Positions 29,101 to 43,781 of a stretch of DNA of 43,848 nt are shown piece after piece (position 1 is the first letter of the stretch; each line of letters starts with the position of its first letter). Source of the stretch: Pseudomonadota bacterium. GTDB lineage: Bacteria; Desulfobacterota; Desulfuromonadia; Geobacterales; Pseudopelobacteraceae. The notes beneath the pieces were generated by a model that ran no database searches, was not told where the DNA came from, and worked only from the letters and a program-made list of their open reading frames with translations. The position numbers and the translations under genes are program-made. The stretch lies in the NCBI GenBank assembly GCA_019352135.1, contig JABBNX010000009.1, forward strand, positions 1 to 43,848, read 5' to 3'.

Positions 29101-32100
29101 ATGACTTTTTATGCCAACCTCAAGATTAAAAGCAAACTGACCTTCGGCTTTTCTACCGTTGTATTTATAATCATGGCAATTGTGATCTTCGGTTTTTTCC
29201 AGATCAACAAACTTGAACAGGCCGACAGCTTACTTTTTAAAAACGGGGTCAAACCGGTGGAGCAAATCGGCAATGTCTCTGCCGGCTTCCAACGCTTGAG
29301 AACCAACATCCGGGAACTTGTTCTCGCGCAAGATCAGCACACTCACGATTACTACCGGGAACGGATCGCAACGTTCCGCAAAGAAATCGACGCGAATGTT
29401 GCCAATCTTGAGGCAGCACTCCCTGATGCCGCGTCAAAAAAACTTTTTGAACGACTGGTGGAAACACGCAGCAACTTCACCCCCCATCTTAACCGCATCT
29501 TGACGTCTGCAAAAGCCAACAGAAATGAAGAGGCGGTAGCATATATAAAATCTGCTGCCGTCGCCGGCGCCGAGCATGCGGAGATTAAGGCGATTGAGGA
29601 CCTGCAGAATTATCTGGTGGAAAACGCTGAACAGATTTCCGAGCAGAATAGCGCAACTGCCAGAGAGACAGGACTGATCACGCTGATCCTGGCCGCTGGC
29701 GCTGCAATGCTGGCGGCAATAATGACCATCTTGATTACCCGCAGCATTGCCACCCCCCTGGGTCAGGTGCTTGACGCGCTACGCTTCCAACAGGAGGGAA
29801 GCAAAGAAAAAGTGCGCATTGTCGAGGCCATCGCCGGAGGCGACCTTGATCAGGAAGTGATTGTTTCCGAACCATTACGGCCGGAGACGGAGCGGTTTAA
29901 CCGGGATGAGGCGGGAATGCTGCTGCAAGCGGTCGTTGGTATGGGCGAAGTACAGTATTCGCTGGACCAGGCTTTTGTCAGGATGTCCAGATCCCTGCGC
30001 CTCAACCACAACCAGGAGGCCTTGCGTGACTGGTTCAAGAACGGCCTGAACAATCTCAATACCATCGTGCGTGGCGACAAACCCACTACGGCACTGGCAG
30101 GACAGGTTTTGGCGTTTCTGATTGAATATATTGGCGCCGGGATTGGCGTTTTCTATGTTTTTGATGAAAAGGAGTCAGCCCTGCACAGAGCCGCCAGCTA
30201 TGCCGTTACCGGAAACGATCGCCTGAACGAGCGGATTTCCCTCGGTGAAGGCCTGGCCGGGCAGGCGGCCCTGGAAAGAAAAATGATTTTCCTGGATACA
30301 GCCCCTCCCGACTATCTTCGCATCAGTTCCGGCCTGGGTGAGTCCAAACCGGCACATATTGTGGTTCTGCCCTTTCTGTACAATGATGCCCTGGTCGGCA
30401 TCATCGAGATCGGTTCCTTCAAGGCATTCAGTGACAACGATCTGGAATTTCTGAACCAGTCAAAAGAAGGAATAGCAATTGCGCTCAGCGTCAACAAATC
30501 GCGGCACATGGTTAATGAGCTTCTGGAACAGACACAGGCCCAGACAGAAGAATTGCGGGTTCAGCAGGAAGAGCTGCAACAGACCAATGAAGAGCTGGAA
30601 GAACGCACACATCTGCTGGAACAGCAACGCGAACATGTCCGCACAAAAAACCGCGAGTTGGAGAAAGCCAGCCACGAATTACAGCGCAAAGCGACTGAAC
30701 TGGAGCGGGTCAGTACCTATAAATCCGAGTTCCTTGCCAATATGTCACATGAATTGCGTACACCTCTCAACAGCCTGATGATTCTCTCCAGCCTGCTGAA
30801 GGATAACCGCGACGGGAACCTGACGATCAAGCAGGTGGAGTTTGCAGCCACGATTAACAGCGCCGGAAGGGATCTGCTGAACCTCATTAATGATATTCTG
30901 GATCTTTCCAAAATCGAATCAGGGCATATGGATTTCCATTACGAAAACCTTCCGCTCTCGGAGCTATGTGCACAGCTCAAAACCGTCTTTAATCCGATCA
31001 CCGGAGACAAGGGGATCGCATTCAGCGTCACAGAAGAAGAATCGGCCCCCGAATCCATCACTGCCGACAATCAGAGAGCCCTGCAAATCCTTAACAACCT
31101 GCTTTCCAATGCGTGTAAATTCACCAAGAGCGGTGCGGTTTCGCTTCGCGTCTACACGCCGACTGCCGAAGAAAATCCGCTCAATACGCGGGCCGTTGCT
31201 TTTACAGTAATCGACACCGGCATCGGGATTCCTGCAGAGAAACAGCAGCTTATATTCAACGCGTTCCAGCAGGCAGACGGCAGCACGAGCCGTACCTACG
31301 GCGGCACCGGACTGGGGCTTTCTATCTCACGCCAACTGGCCCGCTCGATGGGCGGGGAAATTACGCTTGCCAGTGAAGCCGGCAAGGGAAGCACCTTCAC
31401 CCTGTACCTTCCCGTCAATGGGGAGTGCCCCCTCAGGCAGCCAGTTAAACAACCGGCCGTCCCGACCGCGCCGATGGCTGGTGCAACGCCTCCGGACATA
31501 CCGGATGCACCGGTATCCAGAAGAAAATCCTTTGACTCGCTGCCGGCGCCGATCCAGGACGATCGTGAGAATATTCAGAGCGGCGACAGGAATATTTTGA
31601 TTATCGAAGACGACCTGACGTTTGCCGGCATAGTGGCCGATATGGTGCGGGAGCGTAATTTTGCCGTTCTGGTGGCGGCCGACGGAGAAAGCGGTATTGC
31701 CCTTGCCGAGAGCTATCAGCCGAGTGCAATAATTCTGGACATCATGCTTCCGCATATTGATGGCTGGGGTGTCATGCGCAGCCTGAAAGACAACCCGGTA
31801 ACACGGCATATTCCGGTACATTTCATCACCTGCCTGGAGGAGCGCCAGAAAGCGATGAGTATGGGCGCAATCGGCTTTGCCACAAAACCGGTCAGCAGCG
31901 AACAGCTGGATGCCGTTTTCGGCACGCTGGATGCCGCCATCGAAAAAACCATGAAAATGCTGCTGATTGTTGAAGATGACCAGGATCAGGCAACAGCAAT
32001 GGTTGCCCTGCTGGAGGAGAGAAATGTGACTATCACCGTAGCTGATAGTGGCGCCAGGGCCATTGTCCTGCTTTCCAGCGAACAGTTTGACTGCATCGTG

Positions 32101-32820
32101 CTTGATCTGGGCCTGGCTGATATGGGGGCATTTGAGTTATTGGAAGAACTCAAAAAGCTCGATCCTGACCGCCGCATCCCGGTAATTGTCCACACCGGAC
32201 GCGAACTGACTCACGAAGATGAAAGACGCTTGCACCACTATGCGGAGAGCATCATCATCAAGGGAGCTAAAAGTCCCGAACGGCTTTTGAACGAAGTAAC
32301 GCTTTTTCTTCACCTGGTGGAAACCTCGCTTGATCCCGGAAAACAGCGGATGATCCGCTCTGCACTTGACAAGGAAGCGATGCTGGAGGGGAAAAGAGTC
32401 CTTATCGTCGACGACGACATGCGCAACATTTTCTCACTTTCCAGCGCCTTGGCGGAAAAAAACATCACCATCTTTGAAGCGGAAAATGGTCGTGAAGCCT
32501 TGAAACTTCTGGATGAATTTCCGGATATTGATCTGGTCCTGATGGATATCATGATGCCGGTAATGGATGGGTACGAAGCGATACGGAAGATACGGGCCGA
32601 TGCCCGCTTTCACATGCTGCCGATCATCGCATTGACCGCCAAGGCGATGAAAGGTGATCGCGAAGAGTGTCTTAAAGCCGGGGCCAGCGACTATATTCCG
32701 AAGCCGGTCGACATGGAGAAACTTTTTTCACTGCTGCGGGTCTGGCTTTATTCGGCAGGCTCGCCGGACCAGACAGATATGAGGTCGATAGTGACATCAC
32801 AGACGGGAGGGGTGCAATGA
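29101..32820 (+). CDS. Transmembrane HAMP-GAF hybrid histidine kinase with three receivers
   Basis: A 1239-residue hybrid kinase, first gene of a six-gene operon. TM1 at ~15-38, periplasmic four-helix bundle to ~190, TM2 ~193-213, HAMP plus extension ~214-300, GAF ~327-463 (LGEGLAGQAALERKMIFLD), a Gln/Glu coiled coil ~470-545. HisKA follows with NMSHELRTPL (His near 550), then HATPase ~655-765 with DTGIGIPAEKQ and GGTGLGLSIS. Three receivers end the chain: phospho-acceptor Asp near 879 (ILDIMLP), 1002 (VLDLGL) and 1149 (MDIMMP). The last has a full, orthodox active site; the middle one is the most divergent. GAGGAA lies six bases upstream of the ATG. Its stop overlaps the next start (ATGA). 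It should sense through its periplasmic domain and GAF and pass phosphate along receivers; no output gene is obvious. Confidence 0.93.
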   Translation: MTFYANLKIKSKLTFGFSTVVFIIMAIVIFGFFQINKLEQADSLLFKNGVKPVEQIGNVSAGFQRLRTNIRELVLAQDQHTHDYYRERIATFRKEIDANVANLEAALPDAASKKLFERLVETRSNFTPHLNRILTSAKANRNEEAVAYIKSAAVAGAEHAEIKAIEDLQNYLVENAEQISEQNSATARETGLITLILAAGAAMLAAIMTILITRSIATPLGQVLDALRFQQEGSKEKVRIVEAIAGGDLDQEVIVSEPLRPETERFNRDEAGMLLQAVVGMGEVQYSLDQAFVRMSRSLRLNHNQEALRDWFKNGLNNLNTIVRGDKPTTALAGQVLAFLIEYIGAGIGVFYVFDEKESALHRAASYAVTGNDRLNERISLGEGLAGQAALERKMIFLDTAPPDYLRISSGLGESKPAHIVVLPFLYNDALVGIIEIGSFKAFSDNDLEFLNQSKEGIAIALSVNKSRHMVNELLEQTQAQTEELRVQQEELQQTNEELEERTHLLEQQREHVRTKNRELEKASHELQRKATELERVSTYKSEFLANMSHELRTPLNSLMILSSLLKDNRDGNLTIKQVEFAATINSAGRDLLNLINDILDLSKIESGHMDFHYENLPLSELCAQLKTVFNPITGDKGIAFSVTEEESAPESITADNQRALQILNNLLSNACKFTKSGAVSLRVYTPTAEENPLNTRAVAFTVIDTGIGIPAEKQQLIFNAFQQADGSTSRTYGGTGLGLSISRQLARSMGGEITLASEAGKGSTFTLYLPVNGECPLRQPVKQPAVPTAPMAGATPPDIPDAPVSRRKSFDSLPAPIQDDRENIQSGDRNILIIEDDLTFAGIVADMVRERNFAVLVAADGESGIALAESYQPSAIILDIMLPHIDGWGVMRSLKDNPVTRHIPVHFITCLEERQKAMSMGAIGFATKPVSSEQLDAVFGTLDAAIEKTMKMLLIVEDDQDQATAMVALLEERNVTITVADSGARAIVLLSSEQFDCIVLDLGLADMGAFELLEELKKLDPDRRIPVIVHTGRELTHEDERRLHHYAESIIIKGAKSPERLLNEVTLFLHLVETSLDPGKQRMIRSALDKEAMLEGKRVLIVDDDMRNIFSLSSALAEKNITIFEAENGREALKLLDEFPDIDLVLMDIMMPVMDGYEAIRKIRADARFHMLPIIALTAKAMKGDREECLKAGASDYIPKPVDMEKLFSLLRVWLYSAGSPDQTDMRSIVTSQTGGVQ

Positions 32821-33570
32821 GACGCATGGCACTCATTACCGGTGTTCTTTTATCGCTGTTCTGCACAGCCGTTGCCGGTGCTGACGAAGTAAAAATTGCG
32901 ACCGGGGTCACCTTTATCAAGAGAGTATTTGGTCCTGTCAAAAACTCCTTCAGGTATAAAACCGGTATCGACATTACTATTCTTTTTAACGATCCGTTAC
33001 CCGCACTGGCTGCACTTGAAAAAGGAAATGCGGATGTCACCGGAGCAAGTCTGCCGCTTGCCGAGTGGCTGAATCACACGAGGAGTGCGGGTATACCGGT
33101 GCAGGAGATCGGCTGGTATACGTCGTATGTTCCGGTTATTGAAAAAGCCATGATTGTGGTGAATGCCGGAAACAGGGTAAACGCCCTTTCAAAGGAACAA
33201 CTCAAGGGAATTTTTACCGGCAAAACGCAAAATTGGCAGGAGGTTGGCGGTGATGATGCCCCGATTTTGGTTGTCTGGCCTTCAGTCTCTTCAGGCGCCG
33301 TGATCCTTTTTAAGACCAGGATTATGGACAATGAAAGCGCTGACAGATACCGTCTATGATGTTGAATCAGTGGCTGACACACCTGACGCCATCGCCGCGA
33401 CACCTGAAGCGATCGGCATCGTGACCGGGACTGCGGCAGCACCGGGGCTGAAAGAGATTGCCCCTGCCATTGAACGGCCATTGACCCTTGTGTATAAGGG
33501 CTCCCCGACGGCTTCCCTGCAAAAACTGTTGGATTTTTTAAAGAGTGAAGGAAAAATTTATATAAAATGA
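32817..33570 (+). pseudogene. PstS-like periplasmic substrate-binding protein, frameshifted
   Basis: A single-domain periplasmic binding protein split over two frames. The first part (32817 to the stop at 33359) has a signal peptide (ALITGVLLSLFCTAVAGA) and VKIATGVTFIKRVFGPVK, then LSKEQLKGIFTGKTQNWQEVGG, the hallmark of PstS-like domains. Family-like sequence then switches frame: ALTDTVYDVESV...AATPEAIGIVTG...LTLVYKG runs to 33570 in the next frame. Removing one A from the AAA at about 33333-33335 would restore DNEALTDTV and a normal ~250-residue protein. Start overlaps the kinase stop (ATGA) and the second-frame stop overlaps the next gene (ATGA), so the reading frame was intact when the operon formed. 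A sequencing error, a recent mutation or, less likely, programmed shifting explains it. Confidence 0.82.
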
Positions 33571-35930
33571 CCAAAATGACCATCAAAACCAAACTTATAG
33601 CCAATGCGGTGGTCACAACAGGGATGATACTTTTTATCTCTCTGGCCGGCATTTCATCCATGAGTTTTCTGCAGGAGAAACTTTCCTATCTGGCAGAGAA
33701 GAGCACCCCATTCCAGATGCGGACGGTAGAATTACAGCGGGAACTCCAGGGGAGCATAACCGCCTTGATAAAGGTAAACACTGCCCGCACTATGGCTGAA
33801 TACTCGCTGTTCCGGGCAGCAGCCGAAGAAACGCTGGAGAAAGTGAGGTACGACCAAGAGCGCCTGGAGAAGATGGGGGGCGTCGCCAACCGGCTGAGTC
33901 TGTCTGCAGAGTTTACACCGGTAGCACACGATCTTTTTGCCGCTGCAGAAGGCCGCCTCACAAACAGCATCGCGGCCGGTGAGGAGAGTGCCACGGCATC
34001 ACACCAGATGAAGGAATCAACGGCCCTCCTTAAGGAGCTGGAAACCTCTATCCGTCGCCTGCAAGCCACCCGCTCCACCGCTTTTGCCACGGCAATGGAG
34101 AGTACCGGCCACCTATCGGCCCGATTACGGGATATTGAGGTGCTTCGTAATCAGGTAAAGGAATTGATCCTGGTTTCAGGTTCTGCACAGAACGCCCGGA
34201 ATAGAAGCGAGTTCCTTATCGCGAAAGGAAAATTGAACACGCTTATGGGGCAGATCATCAGGAATAAATCCGGGACATTCATCGCCTCTGATGTGAAAGC
34301 GGTTTCTGACGATATGAACGATTTTTTGCTGCGCCAGTCGGCCGCGCTATCTTCAAAGGATGAAATTTCAAAAAAAACTGTCGGAGAATCGTTACAAAAG
34401 CTGACGGGAAAAATGACTCGACTGCACTTGACGCTTAACCAGGAACTTGAACTGGCCGGCGCTCACCTGGAAGCAGAAACCGAGGCGCAGGGAAAAATCT
34501 TCCGCCAGTTGAATGATGCCAACACTATTTTACTGACAAATTCGGAATTGGTGTCACTGGGGTTGATGGTGACAGGTGATATTAACCGGTTGTTTACCCT
34601 TGAATCGGTTGCAGAAATGGAGGGCCTTGATGCGGAAATCCGGCGTATTTTCATTGAAATCAGCTCGCATGTCCACACGGAAGAAAACTCTCTTATCAAA
34701 TTAAATGCCAGAGAGGAGTTAAAGATACTCGCTGCAGCAGCAGCCTCCCTGGCCACTATTCGCACTGAAATTCATGCACCCGATGGGATTGTGACGACGC
34801 TCAAAAAGAAACTGAACTCAATCGACCTGGCAAACAGATCTGTCGAAAAATTGCACGCCATAGTCGTCAAGCAGTCGGCGCAAGGGAAAGCTAGCGTTGC
34901 TGCGGCCCAGGGGGAACAGGAAAAATCAATTATAGATGCAAAAACCATTATCCGCCAGAGCCTGTCCCGGATTGCCGTCATCGGATCTGTGGCGATTGCC
35001 ATCGGGATTCTGTTCGGCTTCTGGATCTACCGGTCGGTGTTGCTGCCACTGCGCGTGGTTCTTGAGGCCGTCAGCAGGCAACAGGAGCAGGGGGAGGAAA
35101 CGGCACATCTTGCCGAGGCTATTGCCGGCGGCGACCTGAACCGTGAGGTAATGGTCAGCTCGGCGTTGCTGCTTGACCCTGCACAGATAAAGAAAGACGA
35201 AGTTGGAATAGTACTCGCAGCGGTTGTGGAAATGAGCAGGGCCCAGGTCACTCTGGACAGGGCTTTTTCCGAAATGACCGTGTCGCTTCGCAGCAGCAGG
35301 GATGAGGCCACCCGGCGTGACCGCTTGAAGGGCGGGCTGTTTGAACTGAACAAAATCCTGCGAGTCGAAAAGAAGAACGCCGAACTGGCTGACGAAGCGC
35401 TGGCTTTTATGGTAGATTTTCTTGGCGCCGGAGTTGGTATCATCTACCTGTATGACGAAACGGGTGAGATGCTCCAAACCCTCTCCACATTCGCCATTTC
35501 CGGAGCCGGTCGCTTGAACTGGGGTTTCCGTCTCGGTGAAGGACTGCCGGGCCAGTCCGCGCTGGAACGAAAAATCATTCACCTCACTACCGTGCCGCCG
35601 GATTATCTCCCGATTACCTCGGCTCTGGGTGAGGCGGATCCACTGAATGTAGCGATACTCCCCATTATGCACAACGACATATTGGCCGGAGTTTTAGAGA
35701 TCGGCAGTTTCAAACAATTCAACGAGGACGATTTTGACTTTCTGGCCCAGTCACTGGAAGGGATCGCTATTGCATTCAACGTCAATCGTTCCCGGCAGCT
35801 GGTCAACGATCTTCTGGAGCAGACTCAAGCTCAGGCTGAAGAGCTGCAGGCCCAGCAGGAGGCGCTGCAGCAGACAAACGAGGAATGGGAAGAACGGGCA
35901 CGGATGCTGGCGGAACGGGAAACTGCATGA
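33567..35930 (+). CDS. Transmembrane HAMP-GAF sensor lacking a kinase domain
   Basis: A 787-residue membrane sensor. TM1 ~8-30; a long, mostly helical periplasmic region ~31-465; TM2 ~468-490 (IAVIGSVAIAIGILFGFWIY); HAMP plus extension ~491-590 (AEAIAGGDLNREV); GAF ~605-740 (LGEGLPGQSALERKIIHL); a coiled coil to the end (LLEQTQAQAEELQAQQEALQ). From HAMP to coil it is a clear paralogue of the kinase at 29101, which has LLEQTQAQTEELRVQQEELQ at the same place. The chain stops exactly where HisKA should start, with no sign of decayed kinase sequence: the next gene's ATG overlaps its stop. It may pair with the full kinase or be the target of the CheR/CheB that follow. Function inferred from context only. 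Confidence 0.9.
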   Translation: MTKMTIKTKLIANAVVTTGMILFISLAGISSMSFLQEKLSYLAEKSTPFQMRTVELQRELQGSITALIKVNTARTMAEYSLFRAAAEETLEKVRYDQERLEKMGGVANRLSLSAEFTPVAHDLFAAAEGRLTNSIAAGEESATASHQMKESTALLKELETSIRRLQATRSTAFATAMESTGHLSARLRDIEVLRNQVKELILVSGSAQNARNRSEFLIAKGKLNTLMGQIIRNKSGTFIASDVKAVSDDMNDFLLRQSAALSSKDEISKKTVGESLQKLTGKMTRLHLTLNQELELAGAHLEAETEAQGKIFRQLNDANTILLTNSELVSLGLMVTGDINRLFTLESVAEMEGLDAEIRRIFIEISSHVHTEENSLIKLNAREELKILAAAAASLATIRTEIHAPDGIVTTLKKKLNSIDLANRSVEKLHAIVVKQSAQGKASVAAAQGEQEKSIIDAKTIIRQSLSRIAVIGSVAIAIGILFGFWIYRSVLLPLRVVLEAVSRQQEQGEETAHLAEAIAGGDLNREVMVSSALLLDPAQIKKDEVGIVLAAVVEMSRAQVTLDRAFSEMTVSLRSSRDEATRRDRLKGGLFELNKILRVEKKNAELADEALAFMVDFLGAGVGIIYLYDETGEMLQTLSTFAISGAGRLNWGFRLGEGLPGQSALERKIIHLTTVPPDYLPITSALGEADPLNVAILPIMHNDILAGVLEIGSFKQFNEDDFDFLAQSLEGIAIAFNVNRSRQLVNDLLEQTQAQAEELQAQQEALQQTNEEWEERARMLAERETA

Positions 35931-36757
35931 CGTCTGATGAGCTCATCGATCTTGAAATAAAATTGCTGATGGAGGGGATCTACCAGGTCTACGGCTATGA
36001 CTTCAGGGAGTATTCCGAAGCGTCCCTCAGAAGGCGGCTGCTCCAATGGCTTTCCGGATCAGGCTTTGCCTCCCTGTCGCTTGCCCAGTCATCCTTGTTG
36101 CGGGATCGCGAGTTATTCGCTACCCTGCTGCGGGGGATAACGGTCAATGTATCGGAGATGTTCCGTGATCCCCCCTTCTTCAAGGCTATCAGGGAGCTGG
36201 TTGTACCGCATCTGAAAACCTACCCTTTTGTGAAGATATGGCATGCCGGCTGCGCCTCCGGTGAAGAAGCCTATTCAATGGCAATACTCCTCGAAGAAGA
36301 AGGCCTGAAAGGGCGCTTCCGGATTTATGCCACCGATATCAACGAAGAGGTGATCCGTACGGCACAGGCGGGTATCTATCCGCTGCAGGAGTTGCAACGC
36401 TTCACCAGAAGTTATCAGCAAGCGGATGGCACGGGTTCCTTCTCCGACTACTACACGGCGAGGTACGATCGAGCCATCCTGAACGCCTCGCTGCGGGAGA
36501 ATATTGTCTTTGCAGCGCATAATCTGGCCGTAGATGCCGACTTTGGCGAGATGAACCTGATTTTATGCCGCAACGTCATGATTTATTTCAAACAGCCGCT
36601 TAAGGAGCGGGTATTGGGACTTTTTGACAGCAGCCTGGTGCCGGGCGGTTTTCTGTGTCTCGGCACGAAAGAGAGCCTGCATCACCGTCGCATCTCGGAC
36701 CGGTATGAGGCGATAACACCCCGGATGCAGATCTATCGGAAACGGTATGCCAAATAG
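35927..36757 (+). CDS. cheR: CheR-type protein-glutamate methyltransferase
   Basis: A 276-residue CheR. The N-terminal helical domain (YGYDFREYSEASLRRRLLQW) is the substrate-binding part; IWHAGCASGEEAYSMAILLEE (near residue 105) is the S-adenosylmethionine motif; IYATDINEEVIRTAQAGIY and LILCRNVMIYFKQPLKERVL are core blocks, ending with GTKESL. The family methylates glutamates on MCP signalling helices, but no MCP is encoded here, so the target may be one of the adjacent sensors. The ATG at 35927 overlaps the sensor stop by four bases; an in-frame upstream ATG at 35885 is ignored. CheB begins inside its last codons. Confidence 0.95.
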   Translation: MTSDELIDLEIKLLMEGIYQVYGYDFREYSEASLRRRLLQWLSGSGFASLSLAQSSLLRDRELFATLLRGITVNVSEMFRDPPFFKAIRELVVPHLKTYPFVKIWHAGCASGEEAYSMAILLEEEGLKGRFRIYATDINEEVIRTAQAGIYPLQELQRFTRSYQQADGTGSFSDYYTARYDRAILNASLRENIVFAAHNLAVDADFGEMNLILCRNVMIYFKQPLKERVLGLFDSSLVPGGFLCLGTKESLHHRRISDRYEAITPRMQIYRKRYAK

Positions 36758-37337
36758 CCGTGGCGGACATTTTAAGGCTGTTGTCCTCGGAGTTTCGACC
36801 GGCGGTGTTGCGGCACTCAAGTTCATACTGGGGGCATTACCACCCGACTTCCCGATCCCGGTCCTCATCGTTACCCATATCACTCCGGATTCTGACGACA
36901 GTCTGGCGGTATTGCTGGACACGCTCAGTGCAATTCGGATAAAAGAAGCCGATGAGATGGAGGCCATAACGTCCGGCACAGTCTATCTGGCTCCGGCGAA
37001 TTATCACCTGCTGGTGGAGCGGGAGCATCTTTTAGCGCTCTCCATCGATCCACCGGTAAATTTTGCCCGTCCTTCGGTGGATGTACTCTTCGAGTCGGCG
37101 GCGGAAGTTTACGGCCCGGCGCTGATCGGAGTTATCATGACCGGAGCCGGAAACGACGGTAGCAACGGTCTGTTAAAAATTAAAAACCGGGGCGGCATGA
37201 CCATCGTCCAGGATCCTGCTGACGCCAAGATGGATGACATGCCAAGAAGCGCGCTGCACGTGGTGAAAGCTGACCATGTGGTATGCTTGAAGGAAATTCC
37301 AGCCCTTTTGATGAGGCTCATACAGAGGAAGCCATGA
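36747..37337 (+). CDS. cheB: CheB-type methylesterase domain, stand-alone
   Basis: A 196-residue methylesterase/deamidase domain. The catalytic triad is visible: Ser17 in GVSTGG, His44 in VTHITPD, Asp137 in MTGAGNDG. The N-terminal receiver found in chemotaxis CheB is missing, so phosphorylation by CheA cannot control it in the usual way; control must come from a partner receiver or it acts constitutively. Stand-alone CheB domains occur next to CheR in non-chemotactic kinase loci, and CheB-CheR fusions joined to PAS kinases are known. The start lies 11 bases inside cheR, and the stop overlaps the next gene (ATGA). Confidence 0.95.
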   Translation: MPNSRGGHFKAVVLGVSTGGVAALKFILGALPPDFPIPVLIVTHITPDSDDSLAVLLDTLSAIRIKEADEMEAITSGTVYLAPANYHLLVEREHLLALSIDPPVNFARPSVDVLFESAAEVYGPALIGVIMTGAGNDGSNGLLKIKNRGGMTIVQDPADAKMDDMPRSALHVVKADHVVCLKEIPALLMRLIQRKP

Positions 37338-39487
37338 ATTTTACCGCACCACCCAACACCATTCCGGTCCTGTTAGTCGATGACCGGCCGGAAAACCTCC
37401 TGTCGCTGGAAGGTCTCCTCGGCAACCAGGGTTACAAGCTCGTCAAAGCATCCTCAGGGAATGAGGCTCTTCGCCTGACGCTCAAGCATGACTTTGCCCT
37501 GGTGCTGCTGGATGTGCAGATGCCGGGAATGGATGGTTTCGAGACGGCCCAGCTGATGCGGGCAAATCCGAAAACAGGGCACATCCCGATCATCTTCGTC
37601 ACTGCCGGCATGGAGGATCTTCAGCTCCAGTTCAAAGGCTATGATGCCGGAGCTGTCGATTATCTTGCCAAGCCGATAGAACCTCTGTTTCTGCAAAGCA
37701 AGGTCAGAATTTTTGCCGAACTGTTCCGCCAGCGCCGTGAGATTGAGCTGCACAGAAATCACCTTGAGGAGCTGGTGGAGTTGAGGACGGCAGAATTACG
37801 CCACTCCGCCGAAGAACTGAAAACAAACAATGAGCAGCTTCAAAATTGGAACAACGCGCTGAAAACAACTGAGGGACTTCTGCACGCGCAGGTCGTGGAG
37901 CTTGTCGAAACGCGCGATCAGCTGGTTGCAACCGAAGAGATGCTGCGCGTACAGATCGAAGAATACAAAACCGCCCAGAAGAAGTTGAACGAATCGAATA
38001 TCAGCCTCCAGACTCTTTTTGATGTGTCACCGCTTGCCATAGTTGTTTCTTCATTTCCCGAGGGAATAATCCGCCAGATCAACCGTACCTGCAGAGATGC
38101 CTTTGGTTACAAGGATGACGTTGTTGTCGGCAAAAACGGTATTGGGCTTGGTCTCTGGGGAGATACTACAGAGAGTGAGCTCTTTTTCAAAGAACTCCAC
38201 GAAAAGCAGAGCGTTTCAGGATTTGCCACCGAAATCAAAACGTTCCAGGGAGAAAGCCGCTCTGTGCTTTTGTACAGCACACTCATGGATTTTAAAGATG
38301 AGAATTGCATGCTGACGGTGACCCTGGATGTCACCGAGCAGAAGCGGATGGAGGATCAGATCCGGCAGACGCAGAAAATGGAGGTCATCGGGCAGCTTGC
38401 CGGCGGCATTGCCCACGACTTCAACAATATGTTAACCGCAATTTTAGGCTCCGCCGAACTTATGCTGAATCATGTCCGGGATGACTCTGCCGCATTGAAA
38501 CTGCTCGGCAACATTCAACAGGCGGCGACCCGTTCGGCCGACCTGACCGGTCAACTGCTGACATTTTCCCGCAAAGGCCAAAAAAACTCGGTGCAAATCC
38601 GTGTCGATGCAATGATTCGTGAAGTTCTTTCACTGCTGGAGCGGACCGTTGACAAGAAAATTATCCTAAAAACACGGCTGACAGCCAAAAATATTTGCGT
38701 AACCGGCGATCCGACTTTGTTGCAGAATGCATTGCTCAACCTCGGTGTCAATGCGCGTGACGCCATGCCTGACGGCGGCGTCATCACCTTTTCCACCGCC
38801 AATGTTGAGCTGGATTCCGGGTACTGTGAGGCGAGTACCTTTGATATTTCTCCCGGTTCCTATATCGAAATCGGGGTATCTGATACCGGCACGGGGATAT
38901 CGAAAGAAATCCTCCAGCATATTTTTGAGCCGTTTTTTACGACAAAAGAGATTGGCAAAGGTACCGGCCTGGGGTTAGCTGTCGTCTACGGCAGCATTAC
39001 AGACCATCATGGCTGTATAAACATCTTCAGTGAACCCGGCACCGGCACGATCTTCAAATTATATCTTCCGGTCTCGTGTGAGAAAAAAGCGCTGGATATT
39101 TCCTCTGAAGAGCTGATTTGCGGTTCAGGCGGCATCTTGTTTGTGGACGATGAGGAGATACTCCGCACCTTGGGGCTGGATCTACTGGAAGGGTTGGGGT
39201 ATCGGGTCTACCTTGCAGAAGACGGCGAACAGGCGGTGGAGGTGTATGAGAGAGAAAAAAAAGATATTTCTCTGATAATTATGGATATGCTGATGCCCAG
39301 AATGGGAGGCAAAGAAACACTGGTGCGGCTTAAGAAGAGCTATCCCGATATCCGGGTATTGATTTCATCCGGTTTTCACCAGCAGGAAACTGTTGACGAA
39401 CTTATAAAACTCGGGGCAAAAGGCTTTCTGCAGAAGCCCTACCTCCGCCAGGAACTTTGCACTGCTGTTGCCGAGGCGTTGAAGTAG
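37334..39487 (+). CDS. Soluble REC-PAS histidine kinase with C-terminal receiver
   Basis: A 717-residue cytoplasmic hybrid kinase, last gene of the operon. N-terminal receiver ~8-125 with Asp near 60 ([11 protein letters not shown]); coiled coil ~135-225; PAS ~230-345; HisKA with [20 protein letters not shown] (His near 361); HATPase ~470-590 ([19 protein letters not shown]); C-terminal receiver ~600-717 with Asp near 651 ([11 protein letters not shown]). There are no membrane segments. An N-terminal receiver suits a kinase activated by another kinase, for instance by one in the same operon. The ATG at 37334 overlaps the cheB stop and has AGAGGA three to five bases ahead; an upstream ATG at 37283 inside cheB is less likely. 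Confidence 0.93.
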
Positions 39488-39578
39488 GGCAGAGAAGCAT
39501 GGTAAGGTGAATGGTTACTCTTGCCGGTGATTTACCCCTCATTTAAAATTTAACCAGGTGCACAAGGAATACAGACTA

Positions 39579-40940
39579 ATGACTGACCCGAAACTCCCCC
39601 CCCAGAATCTGGACGCAGAGATGTCTATTCTGGGCGGTATTCTCATCGACAACGATGCCATCAACCGGGTACTGGAAAGCATCGTTCCGGAAGATTTCTA
39701 TCGCGAGGTTCATCGCAAGATATTCCTGGCGATGATGCAGCTTTCAGACCGGCGCGAGCCATGCGACCTGGTGACATTGACGGAAACACTGCGAAAAAGA
39801 GGGGAACTGGATGAGGTCGGTGGCGCAGCTTACCTGCTCATGCTGGTCGATTACGTCCCGACTGCGGCGAATATCACCTATTATTGCAAAATCGTCAAAG
39901 AGAAGTCGGTAAACCGCAAGCTGATCAGCATCGCCACCGGGATCGTCACCCGCAGCTATGAAGATCAGACGGATGTCAATGAACTGTTGGACAAGGCTCA
40001 GAAGGATCTGTACGAAATCGGTGAAAACAAGCTGCGTCCGCAATACGTCCCGATCCAGCCGCTTATCAAAGAAGCCTTCAAAATCCTCAAATCACTCAAT
40101 GATCGCAAAGAACACATCACCGGCGTACCGACCGGCTATGCCGATCTCGATCAGATGACCGCCGGTTTCCAGCCGGGCAACCTGATCATCATCGCCGCCC
40201 GGCCATCCATGGGCAAAACGACCCTGGCACTCAATATCGCCCAGCACGCCAGTGCCGAGAGCAAAAAGAAAACCCCGTCGGTCATATTCTCCCTGGAGAT
40301 GGGCAAGGAAGACCTGGTCATGCGCTTTCTCGCCTCCATCGCCCGGGTTGACTTCGGACGCATGCGCACCGGGCACTTTCAGGACAGCGACTGGCCGCGC
40401 CTGACCAGGGCGGCAGGAATACTTCATGATGCCAAAATTTTTATCGACGACACCCCGGCCATCAGCGTACTCGAACTGCGCTCCAAGGCCCGCCGCCTCA
40501 AAAGCGAACATGATATCGGCCTGATTATCGTCGACTATCTGCAACTGATGAAAGCGGGCACCCGCATCGAATCACGACAGCAGGAGATCTCGGAGATTTC
40601 CCAGGCCCTTAAGGCACTGGCCAAAGAGTTGGGCGTACCAGTTGTGGCTCTCTCCCAGCTGAACCGGGAGCTGGAAAAACGCGCCGACAAGCGCCCGATG
40701 ATGAGTGACCTGCGCGAATCGGGCGCCATCGAACAGGATGCCGACGTAATCATGTTTGTCTATCGCGAGGCGGTCTATTGCGAGCAGTGCCGCAAACGGG
40801 ATAATTCATGCACCCAGGGGCATGATCGCAACGCCGAACTGATTATCGGCAAGCAGCGTAACGGCGCGATCGGCACCGTCAGCCTGGCCTTTTTTGGCGA
40901 GCATACCCGTTTTGAGAACCTGAGTGACCGCAACGAATAG
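39579..40940 (+). CDS. dnaB: Replicative DNA helicase DnaB
   Basis: A 453-residue hexameric helicase of the replisome. The N-terminal domain (LPPQNLDAEMSILGGILIDNDAI) binds primase; the RecA-like domain has ARPSMGKTTLALNIA (Walker A), FSLEMGKEDLVMR, IIVDYLQLM (Walker B) and VVALSQLNRELEKR. Near residues 400-415 the loop before AELIIGKQRNGAIG carries CEQCRKRDNSCTQGH, a small Cys/His-rich insert not present in E. coli DnaB. The ATG at 39579 is preferred, with AGGA about 12 bases upstream; a GTG at 39558 is possible. No terminator separates it from the signalling operon 91 bases upstream. Confidence 0.96.
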   Translation: MTDPKLPPQNLDAEMSILGGILIDNDAINRVLESIVPEDFYREVHRKIFLAMMQLSDRREPCDLVTLTETLRKRGELDEVGGAAYLLMLVDYVPTAANITYYCKIVKEKSVNRKLISIATGIVTRSYEDQTDVNELLDKAQKDLYEIGENKLRPQYVPIQPLIKEAFKILKSLNDRKEHITGVPTGYADLDQMTAGFQPGNLIIIAARPSMGKTTLALNIAQHASAESKKKTPSVIFSLEMGKEDLVMRFLASIARVDFGRMRTGHFQDSDWPRLTRAAGILHDAKIFIDDTPAISVLELRSKARRLKSEHDIGLIIVDYLQLMKAGTRIESRQQEISEISQALKALAKELGVPVVALSQLNRELEKRADKRPMMSDLRESGAIEQDADVIMFVYREAVYCEQCRKRDNSCTQGHDRNAELIIGKQRNGAIGTVSLAFFGEHTRFENLSDRNE

Positions 40941-40978: not shown

Positions 40979-42628
40979 ATGTCAGAACAGAAAAAGGGGT
41001 CAATGGGCGCAATCCTTTCCGCCTGTAACATCATCAGTGACAACGACATCACAGCAGCCCTTGAAGAACAGGGGAGGACCGGGGCGCGTTTCGGTGAAGC
41101 GCTGATCAGCCTTGGGGTAGTCACACAGGAGGATATTGACTGGGCTCTTTCCAATCAGCTGGACCTCCCGTATATTCGCCTCAAAGCCGACATGATCGAC
41201 CCGGATGCAGTACGGCTTGTCCCGGCCGCAACAGCGAGAAAGTTCAACCTGATTCCACTCATAAAAGCCGGAAGCGAATTGAGCATCGCCATCTCTGACC
41301 CGCTCAACAAGGCCGCCATTGCAGCTGTCGAGCAGGTATCCGGTTGCCAGGTCAATATCTCGGTAGCATTGATCCGTGAAATTCGTGAAATGATCGAGGC
41401 ATGCTACGGCAGTAACATCCATGAACAGCTGGGGTTTACTTCAAGCGCCTTTTCCGAAAAAATTCTGGAGGTCATCAACAATGACCTGAGCGGCGGTAAG
41501 CTGCTCGACTACCTGCTGATTTTTATTCTGCAAAATCGGCTTTCTTCACTCTCCCTGCAACCAATGGGAGACATCGTGACGATCAGCGGCAGACGCGGTG
41601 GTATTTCACACCCTGTCGGGTCGTTGAACGGCACCTATTACCCTGACGTCATCCGCAAGATCCGCAAAAGCATCGGCAGTATAACCTCCGGTGAACCGCA
41701 TTCCGGCGGGCTCCTGACATTCAGCTACCGCTCCCATCCGCTTACGTTCCAGGTTGCCGCACTGGCCGGATACGGCGGAGAATACATCACCATCCGACCG
41801 CATCAATCCGCCGGAGTTCCGAACCGGCTTGTTGACCTTCATCTTCCCGCCCGACAGGAAGCTGATTTTATCCAGCTGTCCCGGAGTAAACAGGGCATCA
41901 CTTTTTTTGCTTCTCGAAACACGCAGGAACGCAACCGTTTTATCGATCTTATGCTGGAAGAGATTGATACCACCGGCAAAAATGTCATTATTCTGGGAGA
42001 AGGGCCGGGGCAAACAAACAAGCGCTTTCCCCGCATTCTTCTTCCCCGCGACGAAACGGCACGGGCCGCCACCATCATGAACGCTCTCGATCATGCCCCC
42101 GATATTCTCGTAATTGAAGATGCTACCGAAGGGATGCCATTTACAGCCGCCTGCCGAGCGGCCATGCGCGGCAAACTGGTCCTGGCCGGACTGGAAATTC
42201 GTGGCACACGCAACGTCCTGCACCAGCTGTTGCTGTATCAGAAGCAGAACTACTTCCTCCCGATTTTCGTCAACGGACTCGTTTCGTTTAAAGGCATTCA
42301 GCTCCTCTGCCCGGGATGCCTGACAGTCTACGCTCCTCCAACCGAGGAACTGGCAGCGATGGACCTTCTCGAATATCCTGCATCATTTTACCGTACGACA
42401 GGATGTGATGAGTGTGGCCATAGCGGTTTCAGTTCGAGAAAATTTCTGACCGATATTCTGATCTTTACCGATGAGTTCCTGCGCATTTTCGAACAATCCA
42501 GCGATGTCTCCGCTCTGGAGAATTACCTCGGGACGATCGGCTACCACGGTCTGTCTGATGAGGGGCAGCGACTCCTGATGGCAGGCTCTGTTTCACCTGA
42601 AGAATATATCGCTTCCGTTGTTCTTTAG
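40979..42628 (+). CDS. Degenerate GspE/PilB-like protein without a working ATP-binding site
   Basis: A 549-residue protein. Residues ~1-150 are a type II secretion/pilus ATPase N-terminal (MshEN-like) region (ALISLGVVTQEDIDWALSNQLDLPYIRL; NLIPLIKAGSELSIAISDP). The C-terminal half follows the layout of PilB/GspE but has lost key residues. Where the P-loop GPTGSGKTT should be, near residue 304, it reads GITFFASRNTQERNRF; the Walker B segment reads PDILVIEDATEG. The zinc-binding Cys pairs of the family are kept (CPGC ~444, CDEC ~477). So the fold is kept and ATP hydrolysis is almost surely lost. A GGAGG site lies seven bases before the ATG. The next gene is pilT, 91 bases on, which suggests a role in type IV pilus control. 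Confidence 0.85.
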   Translation: MSEQKKGSMGAILSACNIISDNDITAALEEQGRTGARFGEALISLGVVTQEDIDWALSNQLDLPYIRLKADMIDPDAVRLVPAATARKFNLIPLIKAGSELSIAISDPLNKAAIAAVEQVSGCQVNISVALIREIREMIEACYGSNIHEQLGFTSSAFSEKILEVINNDLSGGKLLDYLLIFILQNRLSSLSLQPMGDIVTISGRRGGISHPVGSLNGTYYPDVIRKIRKSIGSITSGEPHSGGLLTFSYRSHPLTFQVAALAGYGGEYITIRPHQSAGVPNRLVDLHLPARQEADFIQLSRSKQGITFFASRNTQERNRFIDLMLEEIDTTGKNVIILGEGPGQTNKRFPRILLPRDETARAATIMNALDHAPDILVIEDATEGMPFTAACRAAMRGKLVLAGLEIRGTRNVLHQLLLYQKQNYFLPIFVNGLVSFKGIQLLCPGCLTVYAPPTEELAAMDLLEYPASFYRTTGCDECGHSGFSSRKFLTDILIFTDEFLRIFEQSSDVSALENYLGTIGYHGLSDEGQRLLMAGSVSPEEYIASVVL

Positions 42629-42719: not shown

Positions 42720-43781
42720 ATGGCACGCATCGATGCACTTTTTACTATGATGAAGGAACAGGGAGCGTCCGACCTGCACCTTTCCAGCGGTAATCCGCCA
42801 ATTTTCCGACAGCGGGGCGAGATGGTTCGTCTTAATTTCAAATCATTGGGACACGATGAGCTGAAAGCGATCCTGTTCGAGATTCTCAATGAAAAGCAGA
42901 AGGCGCACTTCGAAGAAGCCAAGGATCTCGATTTTGCCTATGAAGTTCCCGGGCTGGCACGCTTCCGCGGCAATATCATGATGCAGTACCGCGGGATTGC
43001 CGCCGTATTCCGCATCATCCCGACAAAAATACTTACGGCTGACGAACTGGGGCTGCCTGAAGGCGTGCGGCGTATGACCAACTTCAAGAAAGGAATGGTG
43101 CTGGTGACCGGACCGACCGGATCCGGCAAATCGACAACGCTCGCCGGCATGATCGACCTGATCAACTCCACCCGTAAGGAGCATATCCTGACCTTTGAAG
43201 ACCCGCTTGAATTCATTCATGAAAACAAGCTGTCACTCATGAATCAGCGTCAGATCGGCGAGCATACGGAAAGCTTTGCTTCGGCCCTGCGGGCAGCCCT
43301 GCGCGAGGATCCGGATGTCATCCTCGTGGGTGAAATGCGCGATTTGATTACCATTCAGCTTGCGATGAGCGCAGCCGAAACCGGGCATCTGGTCTTCGGC
43401 ACCCTGCACACCAGCACCGCTGCCAAAACAGTCGACCGCATTATCGACGTATTCCCGACCGATCAGCAGGAGCAGGTCCGTGCCATGCTGTCCGAGTCGT
43501 TAAAAGGGGTTATCTGCCAGCAGCTTTTAAAAACGGCCGACGGCACCGGACGCGTTCCGGCTCTGGAAATCATGCTCGGCACCCCCGCCATCGCCAATCT
43601 CATCCGCGAGGGGAAAACATTCCAGATCCCCTCCATCATGCAGACCGCCAAAAAGGACGGCATGCAGCTGATGGATCAGCACCTGCTTGATCTGCTGAAG
43701 ACAAAAAAAGTAAATCCGGAAGAGGCGTATCGCTGTGCGGTCGACAAGAAACAGTTTGAACAGTATCTGACACCGGCTTGA
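42720..43781 (+). CDS. pilT: Type IV pilus retraction ATPase PilT
   Basis: A 353-residue PilT-type hexameric ATPase that powers pilus retraction at the inner membrane. GASDLHLSSGNPPIFRQRGE is the family start; TGPTGSGKSTTLAGMID (Lys near 137) is the Walker A, LTFEDPLEFIH the Asp box, DPDVILVGEMRDLITI the Walker B, GHLVFGTLHT the His box, and TPAIANLIREGK corresponds to the PilT signature AIRNLIRE. The ATG at 42720 has a near-perfect AGAGGAGG five bases ahead; an upstream TTG at 42693 is rejected. Length and motifs are complete. No pilB, pilC or pilin gene lies in the window, so this may be one of several pilT paralogues. Confidence 0.95.
   Translation: MARIDALFTMMKEQGASDLHLSSGNPPIFRQRGEMVRLNFKSLGHDELKAILFEILNEKQKAHFEEAKDLDFAYEVPGLARFRGNIMMQYRGIAAVFRIIPTKILTADELGLPEGVRRMTNFKKGMVLVTGPTGSGKSTTLAGMIDLINSTRKEHILTFEDPLEFIHENKLSLMNQRQIGEHTESFASALRAALREDPDVILVGEMRDLITIQLAMSAAETGHLVFGTLHTSTAAKTVDRIIDVFPTDQQEQVRAMLSESLKGVICQQLLKTADGTGRVPALEIMLGTPAIANLIREGKTFQIPSIMQTAKKDGMQLMDQHLLDLLKTKKVNPEEAYRCAVDKKQFEQYLTPA

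Follow-up and report, generated by a model that had tools for sequence, protein, structure and literature searches.

A PilB/MshE-like protein without ATPase motifs encoded beside pilT3 in Geobacterales, a candidate cyclic-di-GMP-responsive pseudo-motor

The window, by which is meant the whole stretch of 43,848 nucleotides that was analysed, carries a PilB/MshE-like gene encoding 549 aa at 40979..42628 of the forward strand, on which its flanking genes dnaB and pilT and all protein motifs located below also lie. The reading frame opens at ATG 40979, with the ribosome-binding sequence GGAGG shortly 5' of it, and its stop codon ends at 42628. The dnaB gene (39558..40940) ends 38 bp upstream, an adjacency limited to part of the order, and downstream lies an intact gene for a PilT3-type retraction ATPase (42720..43781; TIGR01420, 473 bits against a cut-off of 319), which probably starts at ATG 42720, itself preceded by GGAGG, and not at TTG 42693. 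With dnaB and pilT3 as its neighbours, the PilB/MshE-like gene has no msh genes near it in the window. Promoter and terminator scans gave results at, or nearly at, chance level, and an Rfam search of the window returned no riboswitch. Upstream of dnaB, 32817-39487 encodes a 180-aa PBP_like_2 protein, a 787-aa protein with a C-terminal GAF domain, CheR, a CheB methylesterase and a hybrid histidine kinase with receiver domains; close homologues of the kinase (>70% identity) are found near the pair in only a few relatives (loci L043, L044, L049, L056, L080, and L092). A 1239-aa open reading frame occupies 29101-32820.

Two Pfam domains are recognized in the 549-aa product. MshEN (PF05157) scores 64.1 bits against a cut-off of 23.1 over residues 61-145, corresponding to the C-terminal MshEN subdomain (codons 61-145, 41159..41413), and T2SSE scores 45.9 bits against 24.9 over residues 246-543. 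The NCBIfam equivalog models for PilB (93.4 against a cut-off of 675.65) and GspE (78.3 against 630.25) are matched only far below their thresholds. Thermus PilF and PilB proteins are the closest solved chains by sequence, and an AlphaFold model built from 36 orthologues (mean pLDDT 85) resembles GspE/PilB structures, both Geobacter PilBs included, in Foldseek comparisons (E ~1e-25); its pTM of 0.61 renders the placement of the domains relative to each other uncertain. Taken with its orthologues across the order, the gene is almost certainly that of a pseudo-ATPase whose ancestor was a pilus-assembly motor of the PilB/MshE type. As judged from its sequence, the protein is homologous to the PilB/MshE ATPases and carries an MshEN-family domain, and functionally it is not one of them.

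Seven intact PilB/GspE proteins from the same genome served as reference for an alignment of 74 distinct Geobacterales orthologues, with residue roles (E357, E395, H413, H420, R271, and R286 of PilB) assigned after PMC5424180. The P-loop TGPTGSGKT of the intact proteins is replaced by ASRNTQERN within a degenerate Walker A region (codons 306-319, GITFFASRNTQERN, 41894..41935), in which the Walker lysine has become Arg318 in 73 of the 74 orthologues. The Asp box EDPVE reads GEGPG (codons 340-344, 41996..42010), the Mg-binding glutamate (E357) being glycine here and in 71 of 74. In Walker B (codons 373-384, APDILVIEDATE, 42095..42130) GEIRD has given way to EDATE; the catalytic glutamate (E395) is now Asp381 and across the family is either Asp (67) or Asn (7). 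The His box (AGLEIRG, codons 403-409, 42185..42205), located through the same alignment, has Glu406 in place of its histidine in the window protein, and across the orthologues the H413 equivalent is lysine in 67/74 and the H420 equivalent is gone. One arginine finger, R271, has been replaced by glutamine in 62/74, and the position of the other, R286, is held by Arg or Lys in 68/74 (R273 in the window protein). Walker A, the Asp-box glutamate, the Walker B glutamate and the His box are absent from all 74 sequences. A sequence-only reading of this DNA had reported a P-loop lacking Gly-Lys-Thr and an altered Walker B; alignment upholds both and extends the loss to every catalytic site, including the Asp and His boxes, which it had left unmentioned. 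An orthologue with an intact P-loop would have spoken against it, and a search for G....GK[ST] through 81 family sequences, the most divergent family (~30% identity) included, found none.

Because the same losses recur in 74 distinct Geobacterales sequences, chance or a sequencing artefact can be ruled out, and a pseudogene is likewise rejected by the intact reading frames in about 100 genomes and by a low dN/dS. Normal ATPase activity is, to near certainty, impossible for a protein in which the catalytic boxes are all lost order-wide. The remainder of the molecule shows both retention and replacement. Both zinc cysteine pairs, CPGC (codons 444-447, 42308..42319) and CDEC (codons 476-479, 42404..42415), are present in 74/74 orthologues with all four cysteines (444/447/476/479), which together with the above-threshold MshEN match agrees with the earlier claim that the N-terminal domain and zinc site had been kept. 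The fold and an acidic pore-loop-1 residue are retained as well. The intact ATPases have 71 invariant positions. At 44 of them fewer than 20% of the pseudo-ATPases retain the residue; at 17, which include the four zinc cysteines, at least 80% do. New residues, namely Arg318, Gly340, Gly404, and His372, have become fixed where old ones stood, indicating that the motor body is not merely decaying.

Comparison with seven relatives gave a dN/dS of ~0.08-0.11 for the whole gene (~0.05-0.08 for MshEN and ~0.09-0.12 for the motor body) and 0.03-0.04 for PilT3, some synonymous rates being near saturation; on these estimates the pseudo-ATPase gene evolves under purifying selection. Conservation along its product runs opposite to that in true PilB. 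Across 16 genomes, mean identity of PilB is 95% in the RecA-like body and 73-77% at the N-terminus, whereas in the same genomes the pseudo-ATPase averages 71-73% in MshEN and 53-58% in the remainder, with 58% for its RecA-like body, so that the MshEN region is held and the motor body drifts. In one metagenome assembly (G045) a 166-aa MshEN-only protein (L122:3251-3751) directly 5' of pilT3 replaces the full pseudo-ATPase, which could be an assembly fault. Frameshifted copies at three loci (L192, L114, and L115) represent decay or sequencing errors; a programmed frameshift in codons 111-122 of the split copies L114 and L115 was considered and rejected, since the sites differ and resemble independent small deletions.

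The conserved N-terminal region contains two tandem 24-residue MshEN c-di-GMP motifs (codons 8-31 and 37-60, 41000..41158). The 53-residue MshE-type motif model NF053729 matches residues 9-60 of the window protein with 45.0 bits against a cut-off of 38, and also matches all 36 family members tested. With pocket positions and the consensus RLG..LxxxLxxQ defined after PMC5013675, Q31, Q60, R37, and G39 are invariant across the 74 orthologues, and G10, L13, L28, L42, G46, I53, and L57 nearly so. Motif I has lost its turn glycine, and its first arginine is Ser, Thr, or Ala in nearly all pseudo-ATPases. Motif II is near intact, with R37 present and, at position 38, usually Phe instead of the consensus Leu; across the motifs both glutamines and both glycines are retained. 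Precedents exist on either side, for GSPII-B of Thermus PilF binds c-di-GMP with a Kd of 6 nM although both motif arginines are replaced, by Lys and Leu (PMC11731258), and in XpsE, where many pocket positions have changed, binding has been lost. The genome itself has 26 GGDEF-domain matches. On balance, the MshEN domain of the pseudo-ATPase probably binds c-di-GMP, possibly with low affinity because motif I is without its first arginine and turn glycine. The MshEN region of relatives also contacts platform proteins, so its conservation need not signify ligand binding. Of the three roles that the sequence-only reading had guessed at, ligand sensing through MshEN is nevertheless the best supported, this being the most conserved part of the protein and its c-di-GMP motif lying above the NCBIfam cut-off.

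Linkage to pilT3 is the second constant of the locus. Upstream neighbours vary, but pilT3 lies immediately 3' of the pseudo-ATPase gene in 74 of 76 loci, the remaining two of which end at contig ends. Among 141 Geobacterales genomes the pseudo-ATPase gene is present in 112 (six partial or split) and PilT3 (E <1e-130) in 121; 110 have both, 18 neither, 11 pilT3 alone, and two the pseudo-ATPase alone, counts that are not independent events because the genomes are related. One of these last two runs off its contig and the other has a frameshifted pilT adjacent. The earlier description of a dead enzyme beside an intact PilT therefore holds across the order, as 110 of the 112 gene-bearing genomes have PilT3. 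Since 11 genomes carry pilT3 without the pseudo-ATPase gene, PilT3 does not need it. These genomes are spread over several places in a PilT3 tree whose base lacks resolution, so that gene losses look scattered, and where their upstream DNA is readable no remnant of the gene was detected, dnaB directly preceding pilT3 in most. Outside the class, a single genome among 345 of the phylum (G240, locus L194, contig G240:C11) has a P-loop-less member adjoining a PilT3 of 81% identity. This suggests that the two genes may have moved together, possibly by joint horizontal transfer; a misplaced contig is a possible alternative, and the position of G240 in the PilT3 tree is not firm. Several other candidates were discarded: remote matches in other classes (217-268 bits) had an intact P-loop in all 15 of 26 examined, the G152 protein (218 bits), which comes from a different order in the class and was considered as an ancestor, is no orthologue but an active MshE encoded within an msh-like cluster, and a second divergent copy in G211 is an active ATPase.

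Gene order and the uniformity of the family point to GSU0435 ('mshE') as the probable counterpart in Geobacter sulfurreducens. There the pair has already been described as mshE (GSU0435) and pilT3 (GSU0436), with mshE directly 5' of pilT3 as in the window, and GSU0435 is reported to have 26% identity to PilB and to be conserved in G. metallireducens and G. uraniireducens (PMC5065972; PMC8557921). In the available portions of these papers the protein figures as an MSHA-type polymerisation ATPase or a 'PilB/PulE/GspE family ATPase', without remark on lost ATPase motifs, and the later one lists it as a potential PilB substitute (PMC8557921). According to the earlier paper, PilT3 of G. sulfurreducens can retract Pseudomonas pili, a pilT3 mutant attaches to electrodes and Fe(III) oxide only after a delay, PilT3 and MshE are cited as highly co-expressed on Fe(III) oxide, and mshE and pilT3 are apparently not co-transcribed by RT-PCR (PMC5065972). 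A pilB mutant and a pilB mshE double mutant could not be told apart, mshE being matched to GSU0435 here by the same group and gene name (PMC4974642); this unchanged phenotype would be explained simply by an MshE without catalytic residues. In the literature found, coverage of which is incomplete, no pseudo-ATPase of the PilB/PilT motor superfamily has been described.

The best explanation of these observations, to which we give an even chance of being right, is a nucleotide-free, c-di-GMP-responsive pseudo-motor that modulates pilus or PilT3 function. Its MshEN domain would bind c-di-GMP, and its motor-shaped body, presumed unable to bind nucleotide, would be locked in the nucleotide-free state and switched only through the sensor domain. 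That body would dock on the type IV pilus machine, either at the PilM/PilC platform or on PilT3, or on a signalling partner, and the c-di-GMP level would set whether PilT3-driven pili retract and hence whether cells attach to surfaces. Whether the protein acts on PilT3 or the pilus machine at all is a separate judgement, on which the present evidence is about evenly poised. The closest precedent is Myxococcus xanthus PilB, the ATPase-deficient form of which still signals for exopolysaccharide (EPS) production and the nucleotide-free form of which has been proposed as signalling-active (PMC5544727). If the pseudo-motor explanation is right, a gene treated as a spare PilB in Geobacter studies is a signalling component, the null effect of mshE deletion in a pilB mutant is accounted for, and c-di-GMP is connected, by a testable route, to the attachment that depends on retraction in metal-reducing bacteria growing on electrodes. 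An extension of this idea is highly speculative: the dead motors might form an order-wide receptor family through which a cyclic dinucleotide acts directly on retraction by PilT3, with asymmetric half-sites that could favour 3',3'-cGAMP, the Geobacter signal for metal-particle attachment. The paper on cGAMP signalling names riboswitches and leaves MshEN unmentioned, and VcMshEN binds cGAMP weakly (Kd 330 uM).

Four alternatives may be weighed against a c-di-GMP-responsive pseudo-motor. The foremost, which we consider unlikely, is that a dead ring acts as a decoy or brake by filling the PilM/PilC docking site, thereby blocking PilB and favouring PilT3 retraction without any ligand sensing. The retained fold, zinc site, MshEN C-subdomain and acidic pore-loop-1 residue would suit such a role, as would the constant proximity of a retraction motor gene; however, conservation is highest in the MshEN domain, where the c-di-GMP pocket lies, and not in the motor body, and a pure decoy leaves the invariant Q31, Q60, and G39 unexplained. 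Rather improbable, too, is a signalling protein for another output, such as EPS synthesis or type II secretion, that shares with pilT3 only a transcription unit or expression timing. Regulation of EPS by catalytically dead M. xanthus PilB (PMC5544727) lends this some weight, and EPS or a type II system was also what the pilT3 authors suspected (PMC5065972). Strict co-inheritance with pilT3, extending to one genome outside the class, argues instead for a shared function. A mixed-ring partner, inserting into PilT3 or PilB hexamers and regulating them through the second arginine finger R273 (PilB R286), is very doubtful. The Arg or Lys found at this position in most orthologues and the strict linkage to pilT3 favour such a ring partner, which the sequence-only reading had envisaged; as a catalytic partner it is weakened by the loss of the Asp box, the His box and the R271 finger. 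The residues aligned with the interface-contacting T327 and T411 also differ, PilT has neither the MshEN nor the zinc part, and separate homohexamers have been reported for PilT and PilU (PMC6821130). Finally, a still-active ATPase with a non-canonical site is extremely improbable. The near-universal Arg318 in place of lysine and the prevalent Asp for Glu in Walker B would favour it, but the protein has no Gly-rich loop, Mg-binding glutamate or histidine, and a helix start occupies the place of the P-loop in the AlphaFold model.

Among known systems, the MSHA pilus extension ATPase MshE of Vibrio cholerae shares the MshEN c-di-GMP domain and the T2SSE fold with its Cys4 site, but has all the catalytic boxes of which the pseudo-ATPase, with no msh genes nearby, has none. 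Of the active ATPases scored by full-length profile, an MshE beside msh-type genes also came out highest, just ahead of PilB (218 bits vs 207). In V. cholerae c-di-GMP acts via MshE on extension, opposing PilT-driven retraction (PMC7096442). PilB of G. metallireducens (5TSG/5TSH) and G. sulfurreducens (5ZFR) has the same fold and zinc cysteines at ~17% identity; the equivalents of its E357, E395, H413, H420, and R271 are lost in the pseudo-ATPase. GSPII-B of Thermus PilF resembles the pseudo-ATPase in being an MshEN-like c-di-GMP domain without the canonical arginines, but it sits in an active ATPase and its affinity is measured, whereas ligand binding by the pseudo-ATPase is predicted (PMC11731258). 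FimX, like the pseudo-ATPase, is built of degenerate enzyme domains and is a type IV pilus regulator; it consists of GGDEF-EAL domains, whereas the protein described here derives from a motor (PMC11656802).
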